Positions 2,974-9,669 of a stretch of DNA of 12,593 nt are shown here, piece after piece. Location: assembly GCA_011620825.1 (NCBI GenBank), contig WOYN01000124.1, forward strand, positions 1 to 12,593, written 5' to 3'. Source of the stretch: Candidatus Methanomethylophilaceae archaeon. Lineage in GTDB: Archaea > Thermoplasmatota > Thermoplasmata > Methanomassiliicoccales > Methanomethylophilaceae. Numbering within the stretch: the first letter of the stretch is position 1; each line of letters opens with the position of its first letter. A model generated the notes under the pieces. The model saw only the letters and a list, made by a program, of their open reading frames with translations. It was not told where the DNA came from and made no database searches. Made by a program: the position numbers and the translations under genes.

Positions 2974-3444
2974 TCAGCGATACATCATTTCCCAGCCGCA
3001 ACCGGGGATGAGCTCTTTCAGCTCTCCGTCGTGAAGGTCGGCAGTCTGGAAGGACATCTTTATCAAGTGCTTGATGAGGTCTTGCGAGGGCACCCCGTCG
3101 ATGTAGCTTTGGATGACCTTGAACGAAATGTAACCTTCTTCAGAATCCATGATAAAACTGCCGTTGTTTATGGTGTTGTTGATCTTGTTAAGTTCCACCG
3201 TGAGCTCGTTTCTTTTGCTGAGAGGAACCTCGAACATCAGGCGGCAGTAGATGTTCAGTGTTTTGTGCTCATCGTCCGCGGCTAGTACCATGCCGATGGG
3301 GAGGTCTTCGCCGTTGGCCGCTAAGTATATTACGGGTTCGTCCTCCGCGATCTCGTATTTGTAATCGAAACTGTCAAGTGCCTTGCATACAGCGTTCTTT
3401 ACCGATTTTGCACTACCCCTCTTCTTCTTGAACATTTCCACCAC
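2974..3444 (-). CDS. YbjN-like small alpha/beta protein, function unknown
   Basis: A 156-residue soluble protein whose fold pattern resembles the YbjN / type III secretion chaperone-like family: a lysine-rich N-terminus, alternating strands (IYLAANG, LNIYCRLMFEVP, GSFIMDSEEGYISFKV), then a helix-strand tail LIKHLIKMSFQTADLHDGEL (res. 123-142). No catalytic motif, signal peptide or membrane segment is seen. Bacterial YbjN proteins are linked to stress and motility regulation; nothing in the sequence proves such a role here. The frame opens with GTG GTG GAA ATG, so the start may be GTG 3444 or ATG 3435, and no good ribosome site decides it. A TATA-like CTATAGAA on the minus strand at 3500-3493 could serve it. 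It is convergent and directly abutting with nadA. Confidence 0.75.
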   Translation of the reverse strand: MVEMFKKKRGSAKSVKNAVCKALDSFDYKYEIAEDEPVIYLAANGEDLPIGMVLAADDEHKTLNIYCRLMFEVPLSKRNELTVELNKINNTINNGSFIMDSEEGYISFKVIQSYIDGVPSQDLIKHLIKMSFQTADLHDGELKELIPGCGWEMMYR

Positions 3445-3544
3445 ACGCTCGGATATCGTTGTCGGTATTTGATTTTTGACAATTCACTGGATTTCTATAG
3501 GGGATAAAGACAATAACCACCTTATGCGTCTGGGTTTCGAGGCT

Positions 3545-3602
3545 GGCCGGATGAAGATGATTCCATGCTGATCTGTGATGAGCCCTATGAGTGCCGACGG
3601 CC
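3545..3602 (+). ncRNA. Candidate box C/D guide sRNA, predicted target wobble C34 of elongator tRNA-Met
   Basis: A 58-nt stretch has the full order of an archaeal box C/D sRNA. Terminal stem GGCCG (3545-3549) pairs exactly with CGGCC (3598-3602). Box C is ATGAAGA (3551-3557, one change from RTGATGA), then a 10-nt guide (3558-3567), D' box CTGA (3568-3571), 3-nt spacer, C' box GTGATGA (3575-3581, perfect), a 12-nt guide (3582-3593) and D box CCGA (3594-3597, one change from CTGA). The tandem G-A pairs and G-C pair of the kink-turn are kept; only the usual U-U pair is replaced by A-C. The second guide complements CACTCATAGGGC, and the nucleotide five positions before D selects the C of UCAUA, the wobble base of a CAU anticodon. 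Guiding of Cm34 in elongator tRNA-Met by a C/D RNA is known from Haloferax. Promoter evidence is weak, and the 3' end abuts the stop codon of the convergent resolvase gene. Confidence 0.45.
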
Positions 3603-3604
3603 CC

Positions 3605-4141
3605 TCAATCCGTGTCATAATTAGACATGCACATGTATGAGATGAACTCGCTGAGTTTCATGCCGCTCTCCCATCTCATGATGAAATTACCGTTGTTTGA
3701 AATATCTATTTTAGGGATACGTCTGTTAAGCAGGCCGCACCTGCCTCTCAGCCGATCTTCCGAAGGAATTGTGAAAATCCTCCACGGATCTCCCCTGAAG
3801 CCCTTTAGCCGGTATGCGTAAATCGGAATCAAATGAGATTTCTGGCACTCCTCGAGCATCTGGTCTGCCTGCTCGGTCAGTCGGGTGTTCCTGCTGAAAT
3901 GCATGGTGCTATCGTTAGAGCTCTTTACTTCGATCGGAAAAGAAAAGTCCCATCGAAGCGCAACAAGGTCGACACCAAGGGAACCGGCCGCCCTGACGAC
4001 AAGAAACGGCTCCTTAAGCATCGTGTTGTAGGCTTCGGTCTCGACAGTGTCACAGGTCTTGACCATTTTAGCTATGACCTTGGGGTCCCCTGAAAGAAGA
4101 TACTTCAGCTCTCTTTCATAGATGTCGCCCGGGGGAGCCAT
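3605..4141 (-). CDS. hjc: Hjc-like archaeal Holliday junction resolvase with extended N- and C-terminal parts
   Basis: A 178-residue nuclease of the Hjc / restriction-endonuclease-like fold, expected to cut four-way DNA junctions during recombination. It opens with GDIYERELKYLL (res. 5-16), whose E9/E11 matches the helix-1 glutamate, then FLVVRAAGSLGVDLVALR (46-63) with D58, and FPIEVKSS (68-75) with E71 and K73: the E...D...ExK catalytic set. It is longer than typical Hjc (about 120-145): some 20 extra residues separate the YEREL helix from the VVRAAGS strand, and the C-terminus runs on past PIYAYRLKGFRGDPWRIF (106-123). Start ATG 4141 has no ribosome site but lies about 25 nt after a TATA box, so the mRNA is probably leaderless. 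A distinct repair nuclease of the same fold cannot be excluded. Confidence 0.8.
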   Translation of the reverse strand: MAPPGDIYERELKYLLSGDPKVIAKMVKTCDTVETEAYNTMLKEPFLVVRAAGSLGVDLVALRWDFSFPIEVKSSNDSTMHFSRNTRLTEQADQMLEECQKSHLIPIYAYRLKGFRGDPWRIFTIPSEDRLRGRCGLLNRRIPKIDISNNGNFIMRWESGMKLSEFISYMCMSNYDTD

Positions 4142-7578: not shown

Positions 7579-9669
7579 GTGAATGCAGACATGCGTGCGA
7601 TGAGATTTGTATCGGTACTTTTAGTTGCGCTCATTGCCGTTTCGCCCGCATTTCTCGCAACCGAAAGCATGGCGGAGGTTCAGGACGGCATCCTTATATC
7701 TGAGGTTCAGCCGAAAGGCACCGAAGGCTTTTCGATCTATAACGGCAACACTTGCCAGCTAGATCTGAAAGGATATTATCTCACGGACGGCGAGGGCAAC
7801 CTCTCATTTACGAAATCTTTGATAATCGCACCTTTGACGGACATAACAATATCTTTTGACATAGACGCTGTCCAAACGTTTCTGGAGCGTCCCGATGATT
7901 CAGGTTTTGTCGCATACGAGGTAGGGATGTTCGGCATAATCGCAGATAAAAGTTTCAAACTTGCAGATGCGGGCGATGGGCTTTGTTTTTACAGTCCCAA
8001 AAAGGTGTTGTTGGATTCGGTCTGCTGGGGTAACGTCACGGCGGAGGGATGGAGCGGCCCGGCCGGCGACAAGCCGACAAACGACAGATACCTGATGCGT
8101 TTCTCTTCAACAGATACAGACACTGCGGCCGATTGGAGGCTTTCCCGCCCCGGGATGACCGATAGAACCGGTGGCGTCTCCTTCATCGCCGACGTCACGC
8201 CGTTCACCTTTCCCGAATGCCACGGCGCGGAGATATACGACGCCCTTGGATTAGCCAGGGAGGAGGTCCTGATATCGATCTATCAGATCACAAGCAGGAA
8301 CACCATGGCGCTCCTATGTTTGCTGGCAGGAAGAGGCGTGGACGTGAATGTACTCCTAGAAGGGTCTCCTTTGGGGGACAGAGGGCAAACCAACACGGAG
8401 CGCACAATGATGAAGTGCCTTGTGGACAGCGGCGGTACCGTGAGGATGATCAACGATTCAAGGTCGCAGGACCCATCGGACCCCGGAGACAGATTCACAT
8501 ATATCCATGCAAAATATGCCGTGATCGACGGAAAAACAACCATAATCACTTCGGAGAACTGGACCGAGTCCAATATGGGCACGGGAGATGGTAACAGAGG
8601 ATGGGGAGCCGTTTTAGACAGCGAAGATTATGCAACATATATGCGAGAGATATTTTTTAATGACAGCAGCACTGCGTTCGGCGACTGCAAGGATTTGCTG
8701 GCACTCTATCCGGAACAGACCGGATTCGAATCTGACCTGACGTACTATGATTCCGGCTTTACGCATTACGACGGTTACAAAAGCACAACATTCAGGAATT
8801 GCAGTGTATCGCCGATATTATCCCCTGACAATTCTTATGAATCACTTAGATCTTTTATCGAAGGCTCCGAGACCAGGGTGTATGCCCAGCAGATGGACTT
8901 GTCGGATTCTTATCTCGGCATATCGGATGATTCGCCGGTGTCGTGGATGGTCGATTCGGCATCCCGCGGCGTGGACTCCAGACTGTTGCTGGACCTGACC
9001 AACGACACAGGCAGCAAGTCGGCTGAGATAGGCCTCATCAACACAACTACCCGTATGAAGGCTGCGGGAATAAACGGGGGGGAAGGATTTTGGCTGACCC
9101 ACAACAAGGGCGTGATCGCAGATGATGGTGTATGGATAGGGTCCGTCAACTGGACTGACACGTCGTTTTTCCGTAACAGGGAGGTCGCCGTGATAATACA
9201 ATCCCCAGATGTCGCAGATTATTATTCTTCGTATTTCCTCGGAGACTGGAACAACAATGATCGCTCCGGGAAGATAGCTGTCGAGATCAATTGTTTCGAT
9301 GATCACCTGCCGGGCGACTTCGGCTTTTTTGAGGTGGAAATAGCGCCGAAAGGAGATTATGAGTATATGTGGGATATATATGGCGACGGGAGATTCGTAC
9401 GCAGTTCCTCTATATCCAAGATATCTTACGAAGAATTGGAGCCTGGAAGGCATACCCTCATTGTTACGGTTACCGAAAAAGGTACGGGAAGATCGGCTGT
9501 TGCAATGGCCGAATATATCATCGACGAACAAAGTCAAGGGACCGACAGTATTAATGTCGATTTTGTATACTTAGCCATAGTAGTGTCGGCCTCCGTGGCA
9601 GCTCTGGGAATCATCAGGGCAGAAAAAACTCGGGATTTCCGAGAAAAACGAAAGAGGAGAAATCGGTGA
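7579..9669 (+). CDS. Secreted, membrane-anchored phospholipase D-superfamily protein with lamin-tail-like domain
   Basis: A 696-residue exported protein. A signal peptide (hydrophobic VSVLLVALIAVSPAFLA, res. 11-27) is followed by a lamin-tail-like domain (about 37-195): ILISEVQPKGTEGFSIYN, LDLKGYYLTDGEGN, DSVCWGN and DTAADWRLSRPG. Two PLD modules follow: HKD motif 1 is H310-x-K312-x4-D317 with SENW at 325-328, and motif 2 is H508-x-K510-x4-D515 with GSVNW at 521-525. Both motifs are intact, so an active phosphodiesterase (nuclease or phospholipase) is plausible. A beta-rich region (about 567-650) leads to a membrane helix FVYLAIVVSASVAALGII (662-679) and a basic cytoplasmic tail rich in K/R. 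The frame opens at GTG 7579, with ATG at 7591 and 7600; ATG 7600 gives the most compact signal peptide. Its stop overlaps the GNAT start. Substrate is unknown. Confidence 0.88.
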   Translation: MNADMRAMRFVSVLLVALIAVSPAFLATESMAEVQDGILISEVQPKGTEGFSIYNGNTCQLDLKGYYLTDGEGNLSFTKSLIIAPLTDITISFDIDAVQTFLERPDDSGFVAYEVGMFGIIADKSFKLADAGDGLCFYSPKKVLLDSVCWGNVTAEGWSGPAGDKPTNDRYLMRFSSTDTDTAADWRLSRPGMTDRTGGVSFIADVTPFTFPECHGAEIYDALGLAREEVLISIYQITSRNTMALLCLLAGRGVDVNVLLEGSPLGDRGQTNTERTMMKCLVDSGGTVRMINDSRSQDPSDPGDRFTYIHAKYAVIDGKTTIITSENWTESNMGTGDGNRGWGAVLDSEDYATYMREIFFNDSSTAFGDCKDLLALYPEQTGFESDLTYYDSGFTHYDGYKSTTFRNCSVSPILSPDNSYESLRSFIEGSETRVYAQQMDLSDSYLGISDDSPVSWMVDSASRGVDSRLLLDLTNDTGSKSAEIGLINTTTRMKAAGINGGEGFWLTHNKGVIADDGVWIGSVNWTDTSFFRNREVAVIIQSPDVADYYSSYFLGDWNNNDRSGKIAVEINCFDDHLPGDFGFFEVEIAPKGDYEYMWDIYGDGRFVRSSSISKISYEELEPGRHTLIVTVTEKGTGRSAVAMAEYIIDEQSQGTDSINVDFVYLAIVVSASVAALGIIRAEKTRDFREKRKRRNR
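9653..9660 (+). promoter_or_regulatory. Shine-Dalgarno site deciding the GTG start of the acetyltransferase
   Basis: AGAGGAGA inside the last codons of the PLD gene ends 5 nt before GTG at 9666. It supports a GTG start and a GTGA overlap with the PLD stop codon. Confidence 0.65.

Follow-up and report, generated by a model that had tools for sequence, protein, structure and literature searches.

Archaeal box C/D sRNAs are built around boxes C (RUGAUGA) and D (CUGA), which form a kink-turn beside a terminal stem, together with an internal C'/D' pair and two guides of 10-12 nt, and they are bound by L7Ae, Nop5 and fibrillarin. The described systems closest to the locus analysed here are guides for 2'-O-methylation of wobble C34 (Cm34) in elongator tRNA-Met. 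Passages of PMC2584109 list 18 sRNA candidates for tRNA-Met Cm34 and describe, for haloarchaea, a guide with which part of the intron pairs, methylation having to precede splicing; a preliminary description of the present locus had rightly treated guides of this kind as already known. The same passages apply the name sR41, in Pyrococcus, to an orphan for which a different target is suggested, and call the tRNA-Met guide sR49, while an excerpt of PMC4033218 credits the haloarchaeal sR-tMet to Joardar et al. 2011. According to a passage of PMC7089733 that cites Yang et al. 2016, guide-target duplexes of 8-10 bp lead to high methylation, with melting beyond the tenth pair.

The window, that is, the whole stretch of DNA that was analysed, is one entire contig of 12,593 nucleotides from a genome of 922 kb that is 71% complete. 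We conclude, with a probability of about 0.94, that it contains a box C/D sRNA gene guiding Cm34 of unspliced elongator tRNA-Met (Table 1). Read directly from the plus strand at 3545-3602, the 58-nt sequence is GGCCG-G-AUGAAGA-UGAUUCCAUG-CUGA-UCU-GUGAUGA-GCCCUAUGAGUG-CCGA-CGGCC, with guides of 10 and 12 nt, an internal D' CUGA and C' GUGAUGA, and a supported stem. It occupies a gap of 160 bp (3445-3604), flanked on one side by the start of a YbjN-like gene (2974-3444, minus strand) and on the other by an hjc-like stop codon located 3 nt past its end. The order and spacing of the parts, the length and the gap reported in the preliminary description were all recovered on direct reading, and boxes C and D do carry one change each, both at the same kink-turn pair (3b.3n = A.C). 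Across the 31 genomes aligned from the window's own family (f1), A+T content peaks at 0.80 between -38 and -33 from box C and is 0.30-0.60 outside -42 to -31; this peak, 27-32 nt ahead of the stem, suggests a TATA box of the sRNA's own at a fitting distance. A fibrillarin gene is present in 4/4 genomes tested, the window's own among them, and the match in the same-genus genome G004 (G004:C3:418956-419594) contains one internal TGA, which may be a sequencing error, a frame problem or real. Elsewhere in the window, 7579-9669 encodes a protein of 696 aa that has phospholipase-D-like domains and, below cut-off, weakly matches a lamin-tail domain; it adjoins the genes for triosephosphate isomerase and fructose-1,6-bisphosphatase.

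Table 1. Coordinates in the window of the sRNA, its parts and the adjoining elements.
Feature	Positions	Strand	Basis or remark
Box C/D sRNA, sR41 / sR-tMet type	3545..3602	+	RF01126 53.8 bits, E 3.3e-10; RF02163 31.4 bits; homologues in relatives
Terminal stem, 5' strand GGCCG	3545..3549	+	Partner of 3598-3602
Box C AUGAAGA, 3b = A not U	3551..3557	+	A there in 26/38 aligned homologues
D' guide UGAUUCCAUG, probable orphan	3558..3567	+	29 different sequences among 31 f1 genomes
Box D' CUGA	3568..3571	+	Identical in 38/38 strict-match homologues, CTGA being demanded by that match
D'-C' spacer UCU, 3 nt, K-loop type	3572..3574	+	3 nt in 29/31 f1 homologues
Box C' GUGAUGA	3575..3581	+	Homologue alignment; RTGATGA demanded by match
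D guide	3582..3593	+	3583-3592 (CCCUAUGAGU) pair pre-tRNA-Met; 3589 (G) opposite C34
Box D CCGA, 3n = C not U	3594..3597	+	C there in 13/38 homologues
Terminal stem, 3' strand CGGCC	3598..3602	+	Stem pairing across homologues
Candidate TATA-like element, putative sRNA promoter	3511..3519	+	Suggested by A+T peak over f1 genomes
hjc-like gene (Holliday junction resolvase), convergent	3605..4141	-	Pfam PF01870 39.1 bits; neighbour in 30/31 f1 loci

The sR41 model (RF01126) scores the window copy 53.8 bits (E 3.3e-10 for the 12.6-kb window), 0.2 bit short of its gathering cut-off of 54, and weaker matches at the same place came from sR-tMet (RF02163, 31.4 bits) and snoPyro_CD (28.7 bits). A scan of 40 homologous loci put 13 at or over the sR41 cut-off, all from f1 and including same-genus G004 at 56.6 bits; the other 27, including the window copy, fall below it. 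A second sR41 scan with other scoring gave 42.8 bits for the window copy and put none of 61 related genomes over the cut-off, with a match at E <= 0.001 in 39/61. Since this second scoring underrates the window copy (42.8 vs 53.8 bits), the 40-locus scan is the fairer test of the cut-off, and the statement that the Rfam cut-off misses the sRNA in all 61 genomes was rejected. With 53.8 below 54, the window copy is classed as an sR41 homologue and not as an Rfam-accepted hit, on the strength of its guide, architecture, target and passing orthologues.

The elongator tRNA-Met of the same genome (G000:C159:4086-4190, L014) carries ACTCATAGGG and has a 31-nt intron after A37; its junctions, read by eye and marked here with slashes, are GGACUCAUA/GGGUUCUGG...CCAGGGAA/AUCCG, and its anticodon is CAU. 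ARAGORN labels this intron-containing gene (L014:1501-1605) tRNA-Ser(CGA), and elongator tRNA-Met may be missing from the automatic annotation of such genomes. Positions 2-11 of the D guide pair 10/10 with ACUCAUAGGG, which consists of tRNA nucleotides 31-37 and the first three intron bases (ACUCAUA/GGG), and position 5 (N+5) stands opposite C34. Positions 1 and 12 form no Watson-Crick pairs, in agreement with the maximum-10-nt rule of Yang et al. 2016 as relayed by the passage of PMC7089733. The spliced tRNA-Met (ACUCAUAAUC; anticodon arm ACTCATAATC) offers just 7 bp to the D guide and the initiator tRNA (L013, GCUCAUAACC) 7 pairs, one of them G-U (counted by eye), while the runner-up among the 31 tRNA predictions of the genome, a set with some repeats that counts the initiator, would pair with one mismatch and three G-U pairs. 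Because the GGG is intronic and both the spliced and the initiator tRNA are limited to 7 bp, the substrate is best read as the unspliced precursor.

This pairing supports the earlier proposal that the D guide selects C34 of elongator tRNA-Met by the N+5 rule. The expectation that the guide would match the genome's own tRNA-Met held for perfect pairing with C34 at N+5, but the partner proved to be the intron-containing precursor; since the spliced arm pairs over 7 bp, a comparison with the anticodon arm of the mature tRNA, as previously suggested, would have seemed to fail. In the mechanism we propose, the transcribed sRNA of ~58 nt would bind L7Ae, Nop5 and fibrillarin, its D guide would form 10 bp with unspliced elongator tRNA-Met over the 5' exon-intron junction, and fibrillarin would methylate the 2'-O of wobble C34. 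As three of the ten pairs use the first bases of the intron, methylation should precede splicing, and the spliced and initiator tRNAs would be poor substrates. The same guide and the same order of events are described in the haloarchaeal passages of PMC2584109; the window sRNA is real and was rightly interpreted at the outset, and it belongs to a known type.

A duplex that spans the exon-intron junction (CUCAUA/GGG), which must fold as splicing substrate, could also mean that the C/D RNP serves mainly as a chaperone of, or brake on, pre-tRNA-Met splicing by covering the 5' splice site, with methylation secondary. We regard such a role as improbable, given that pairing register and invariant residues (positions 2-11) both match what a methylation guide would show, C34 lying at N+5. 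A single-strand fold of pre-tRNA-Met gave no clear cloverleaf.

The conservation of the locus was analysed in 38 aligned homologues (31 from f1 and 7 others) obtained by a strict box match; G031, in which the D guide is present and a long D' guide fails that match, was left out of both counts. The D-guide core CCCUAUGAGU is invariant in 38/38, and within f1 (n=31) guide positions 2-11 carry 2.0 bits of information each, with 1.1 at position 1 and 1.32 at position 12. The homologues were gathered with the sR41 model, which favours the D guide, and TATGAG was demanded by the strict match, the other four positions being open; on account of this bias, less constrained evidence comes from a relaxed pattern in which four positions of the intron-pairing part were left open. 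This pattern gave 52 matches in 48/61 genomes, with 5 matches in 5 genomes for the backwards control; each of the 48 genomes has one NCCC match, and the four extra matches (three genomes) differ. A pattern around the D guide matched 35/61 related genomes, and the same pattern read backwards, used as control, matched 0/61. One match in G049 (L121), resembling an initiator tRNA-Met guide, was discarded because neither box C nor D' can be seen and the sequence looks coding (by eye).

Within the genus (6 genomes), pairwise identity is 91.5% over the sRNA; it is 59.8% in the upstream flank and 79.2% in the downstream flank, which runs into hjc. In the 31 f1 sequences 91.6% of the 155 cells of the terminal stem are paired and 9 cells are changed on both sides; sliding the stem partner by +3 raised the covariation score with far fewer cells paired. 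In the alignment across relatives proposed in the preliminary description, the guide is kept, and the stem is mostly maintained through changes. The 3b.3n pair is A.U in 14 of the 38 homologues, A.C in 7, C.C in 5, A.A in 5 and U.U in 4, with three other forms seen once each. A claim of covariation at this pair was rejected as too weak, its mutual information being matched by 442 of 10000 shuffles that ignore relatedness. According to an excerpt of PMC4382518, folding in ions alone is poor when 3b.3n is a Watson-Crick or G-U pair and is permitted by 3b=C or 3n=G, provided that the two do not occur together; by analogy, the C.C kink-turns might fold with ions, and L7Ae would be expected to be necessary for the A.U forms.

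The neighbourhood is conserved as well. An hjc gene lies beside the sRNA in 30/31 f1 loci (a partial match in G026, on a short stretch; the exception is G013, whose contig soon ends), and outside f1 an hjc match was found at 1/7 loci, all seven stretches being merely 451-501 bases long. With an end 3 nt from the hjc stop and this neighbourhood, the sRNA could be taken to serve the convergent hjc gene in the main, as an antisense or 3'-end element, a reading that we consider very improbable, as records titled Methanosarcina, Methanothrix, Methanoperedens and haloarchaea contain the same D guide and the constraint on it tracks tRNA pairing. Chance resemblance or a decayed guide, to which the single changes in boxes C and D (departures also seen in relatives) and a score slightly below the Rfam cut-off might point, is the least credible account, in the face of the conservation, the backwards-pattern controls and the 10/10 match to pre-tRNA.

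We then compared the presence of the guide with the state of the tRNA-Met intron across the 61 genomes, the tRNA-Met of G006 and G016 being read by eye. The tRNA-Met reads ACTCATAGGG in 46 genomes, and the sRNA pattern is present in 44 of these. Nine genomes have a changed or lost intron (AAGG in 5, ATGG in 1, ATGA in 1, intronless in 2), with the sRNA pattern in 0/9; six others, without a usable tRNA-Met found, divide into 4 with and 2 without the sRNA. The association of intron and guide has a Fisher probability of 8.6e-9, a value that ignores shared ancestry. The nine non-pairing genomes comprise seven f6 genomes and two from genus g2 (within f1), a grouping that probably reflects at least two separate intron changes. 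Both exceptions with a pairing intron come from incomplete genomes: in G014 (73% complete) a contig ends in an apparent 3' part of the sRNA with a different outermost base, and G027 (88% complete) shows neither the sRNA pattern nor an hjc match. In G028 (g2, 79% complete; L338, L091) the intron reads ATGG and hjc is present, and nothing resembling the sRNA was seen in the 300 nt beyond hjc. The tRNA-Met junction of G006 (g2; L079) reads AAGG and no guide was found there; no hjc match was obtained in G006 or in any of the eight f6 genomes. The intronless G041 and G058 have CTCATA-ATCC at the junction (ACTCATAATC) and gave no guide match.

The D' guide behaves differently from the D guide, with 29 different sequences in 31 f1 genomes. 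As rRNA was not found in the window's own assembly by searches each of which also missed 5/14 control genomes, the D' guide was run against SSU and LSU of same-genus G001. The best match of UGAUUCCAUG in these rRNAs was equalled by 47/100 shuffled guides, and the best pairing it makes with the genome's own predicted tRNAs includes one mismatch and two G-U pairs. G001's own D' guide has a match of 8 bp plus one G-U in LSU, equalled by 10/100 shuffles; this site was dismissed as a target for the window guide, which mismatches at N+5 (by eye). The methylation site once predicted for the first guide is therefore probably not real, with no convincing target in G001 rRNA or own tRNAs and a guide that is not conserved, and in f1 the D' half is probably without a target. 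Several family members (L034, L040, L045, L185 and L226) share a D' guide that resembles GACCGAGG or CCGAGG ahead of CUGA, with no convincing common target (G020 tested).

Outside f1, Thermoplasmatota homologues (e.g. G048, G042, L175, L213) share the identical D-guide core and differ from the window sRNA in a D' guide, AGAGGGUCAG, predicted to target 23S helix 69, and in a D'-C' spacer longer than 3 nt (9-12 nt in the 7 non-f1 aligned homologues), while Methanomethylophilaceae mostly have the short K-loop spacer. Exact AGAGGGUCAG-CUGA occurs in 13/16 non-f1 members of the order with the sRNA; the D' guide is a close variant in G051 and G055 and unrelated in G039, and 8/24 non-f1 genomes, all f6, are without the sRNA pattern. 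At the sRNA, AGAGGGUCAG is absent from all 31 aligned f1 copies and from G031. Positions 2-11 of GAAGAGGGUCAG pair 10/10 with 23S AUGACCCUCUUA in G048 and G042 (L112, L313), a result equalled by 0/100 shuffles, and N+5 falls on the C aligned to E. coli C1920 in helix 69. Nine LSU genes, seven from f1, were checked, and every one keeps the target site. Among the matches listed, 22/119 loci have AGAGGGTC upstream of the D guide, and a loose match finds box C and CTGA upstream in 101/119; the 14 titled AGAGGGTC loci among the matches listed comprise 11 named Thermoplasmata, Thermoplasmatota or Methanomassiliicoccales/-aceae and 3 named 'Euryarchaeota archaeon'. At least one locus, L224, from a record titled Spirochaetales, has neither box C nor CTGA upstream and is likely a chance match, and occurrences of the helix-69 pattern in G050, G024, G033 and at a second place in G048 were set aside for having no visible C/D boxes (by eye).

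In passages of the respective papers, C1920 is methylated by TlyA, a protein enzyme, in bacteria (PMC5778110), and helix 69 is predicted to be a hotspot of methylation among hyperthermophilic archaea (PMC4644070). Among the papers listed by searches of an open-access collection, which omits most subscription journals, we found none linking the GAAGAGGGUCAG guide to C1920. We give even odds to a history in which, across much of the Thermoplasmatota, the sRNA would guide two sites of the translation machinery (D, C34 of pre-tRNA-Met; D', the C1920 position of 23S helix 69), Methanomethylophilaceae would have lost the D' guide and kept its rRNA site, and lineages losing the intron GGG would have lost the sRNA. 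If this is true, guide survival would be tied to an intron, providing a selective reason to keep a tRNA intron. Two natural experiments are at hand: a D' guide altered in one family with its rRNA site unchanged, and genomes without the intron or without its GGG, which gave no guide match.

These results extend the established tRNA-Met Cm34 guide to a family of methanogens living in guts and sediments, and each genome gains a predicted methylation site. Among the open-access papers listed for Methanomassiliicoccales, none dealt with the window sRNA, and both the co-occurrence of intron and guide across the order and the Thermoplasmatota D' guide appear to be unreported in the literature searched.

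Compared with the known systems, the window sRNA has the architecture and the entire D guide GAGCCCUAUGAG of sR41 (RF01126), and differs from it in the D' guide and in the U to A change of box C and the U to C change of box D. It shares with the haloarchaeal sR-tMet (RF02163) the D-guide sequence and the target, C34 of elongator tRNA-Met, and the box D of that model is CCGA-like; the sR-tMet model has 72 positions with an inner stem, whereas the window sRNA has 58 nt and a 3-nt D'-C' spacer. A further likeness, in target and gene setting as described, is to Pyrococcus sR49, which in the passages of PMC2584109 has the same predicted Cm34 target nucleotide and a free-standing gene, not an intronic one. 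Finally, tRNA-targeting sRNAs of Pyrobaculum are described in a passage of PMC7994747 as having one tRNA guide and one guide without a target, a layout that the window sRNA probably shares.
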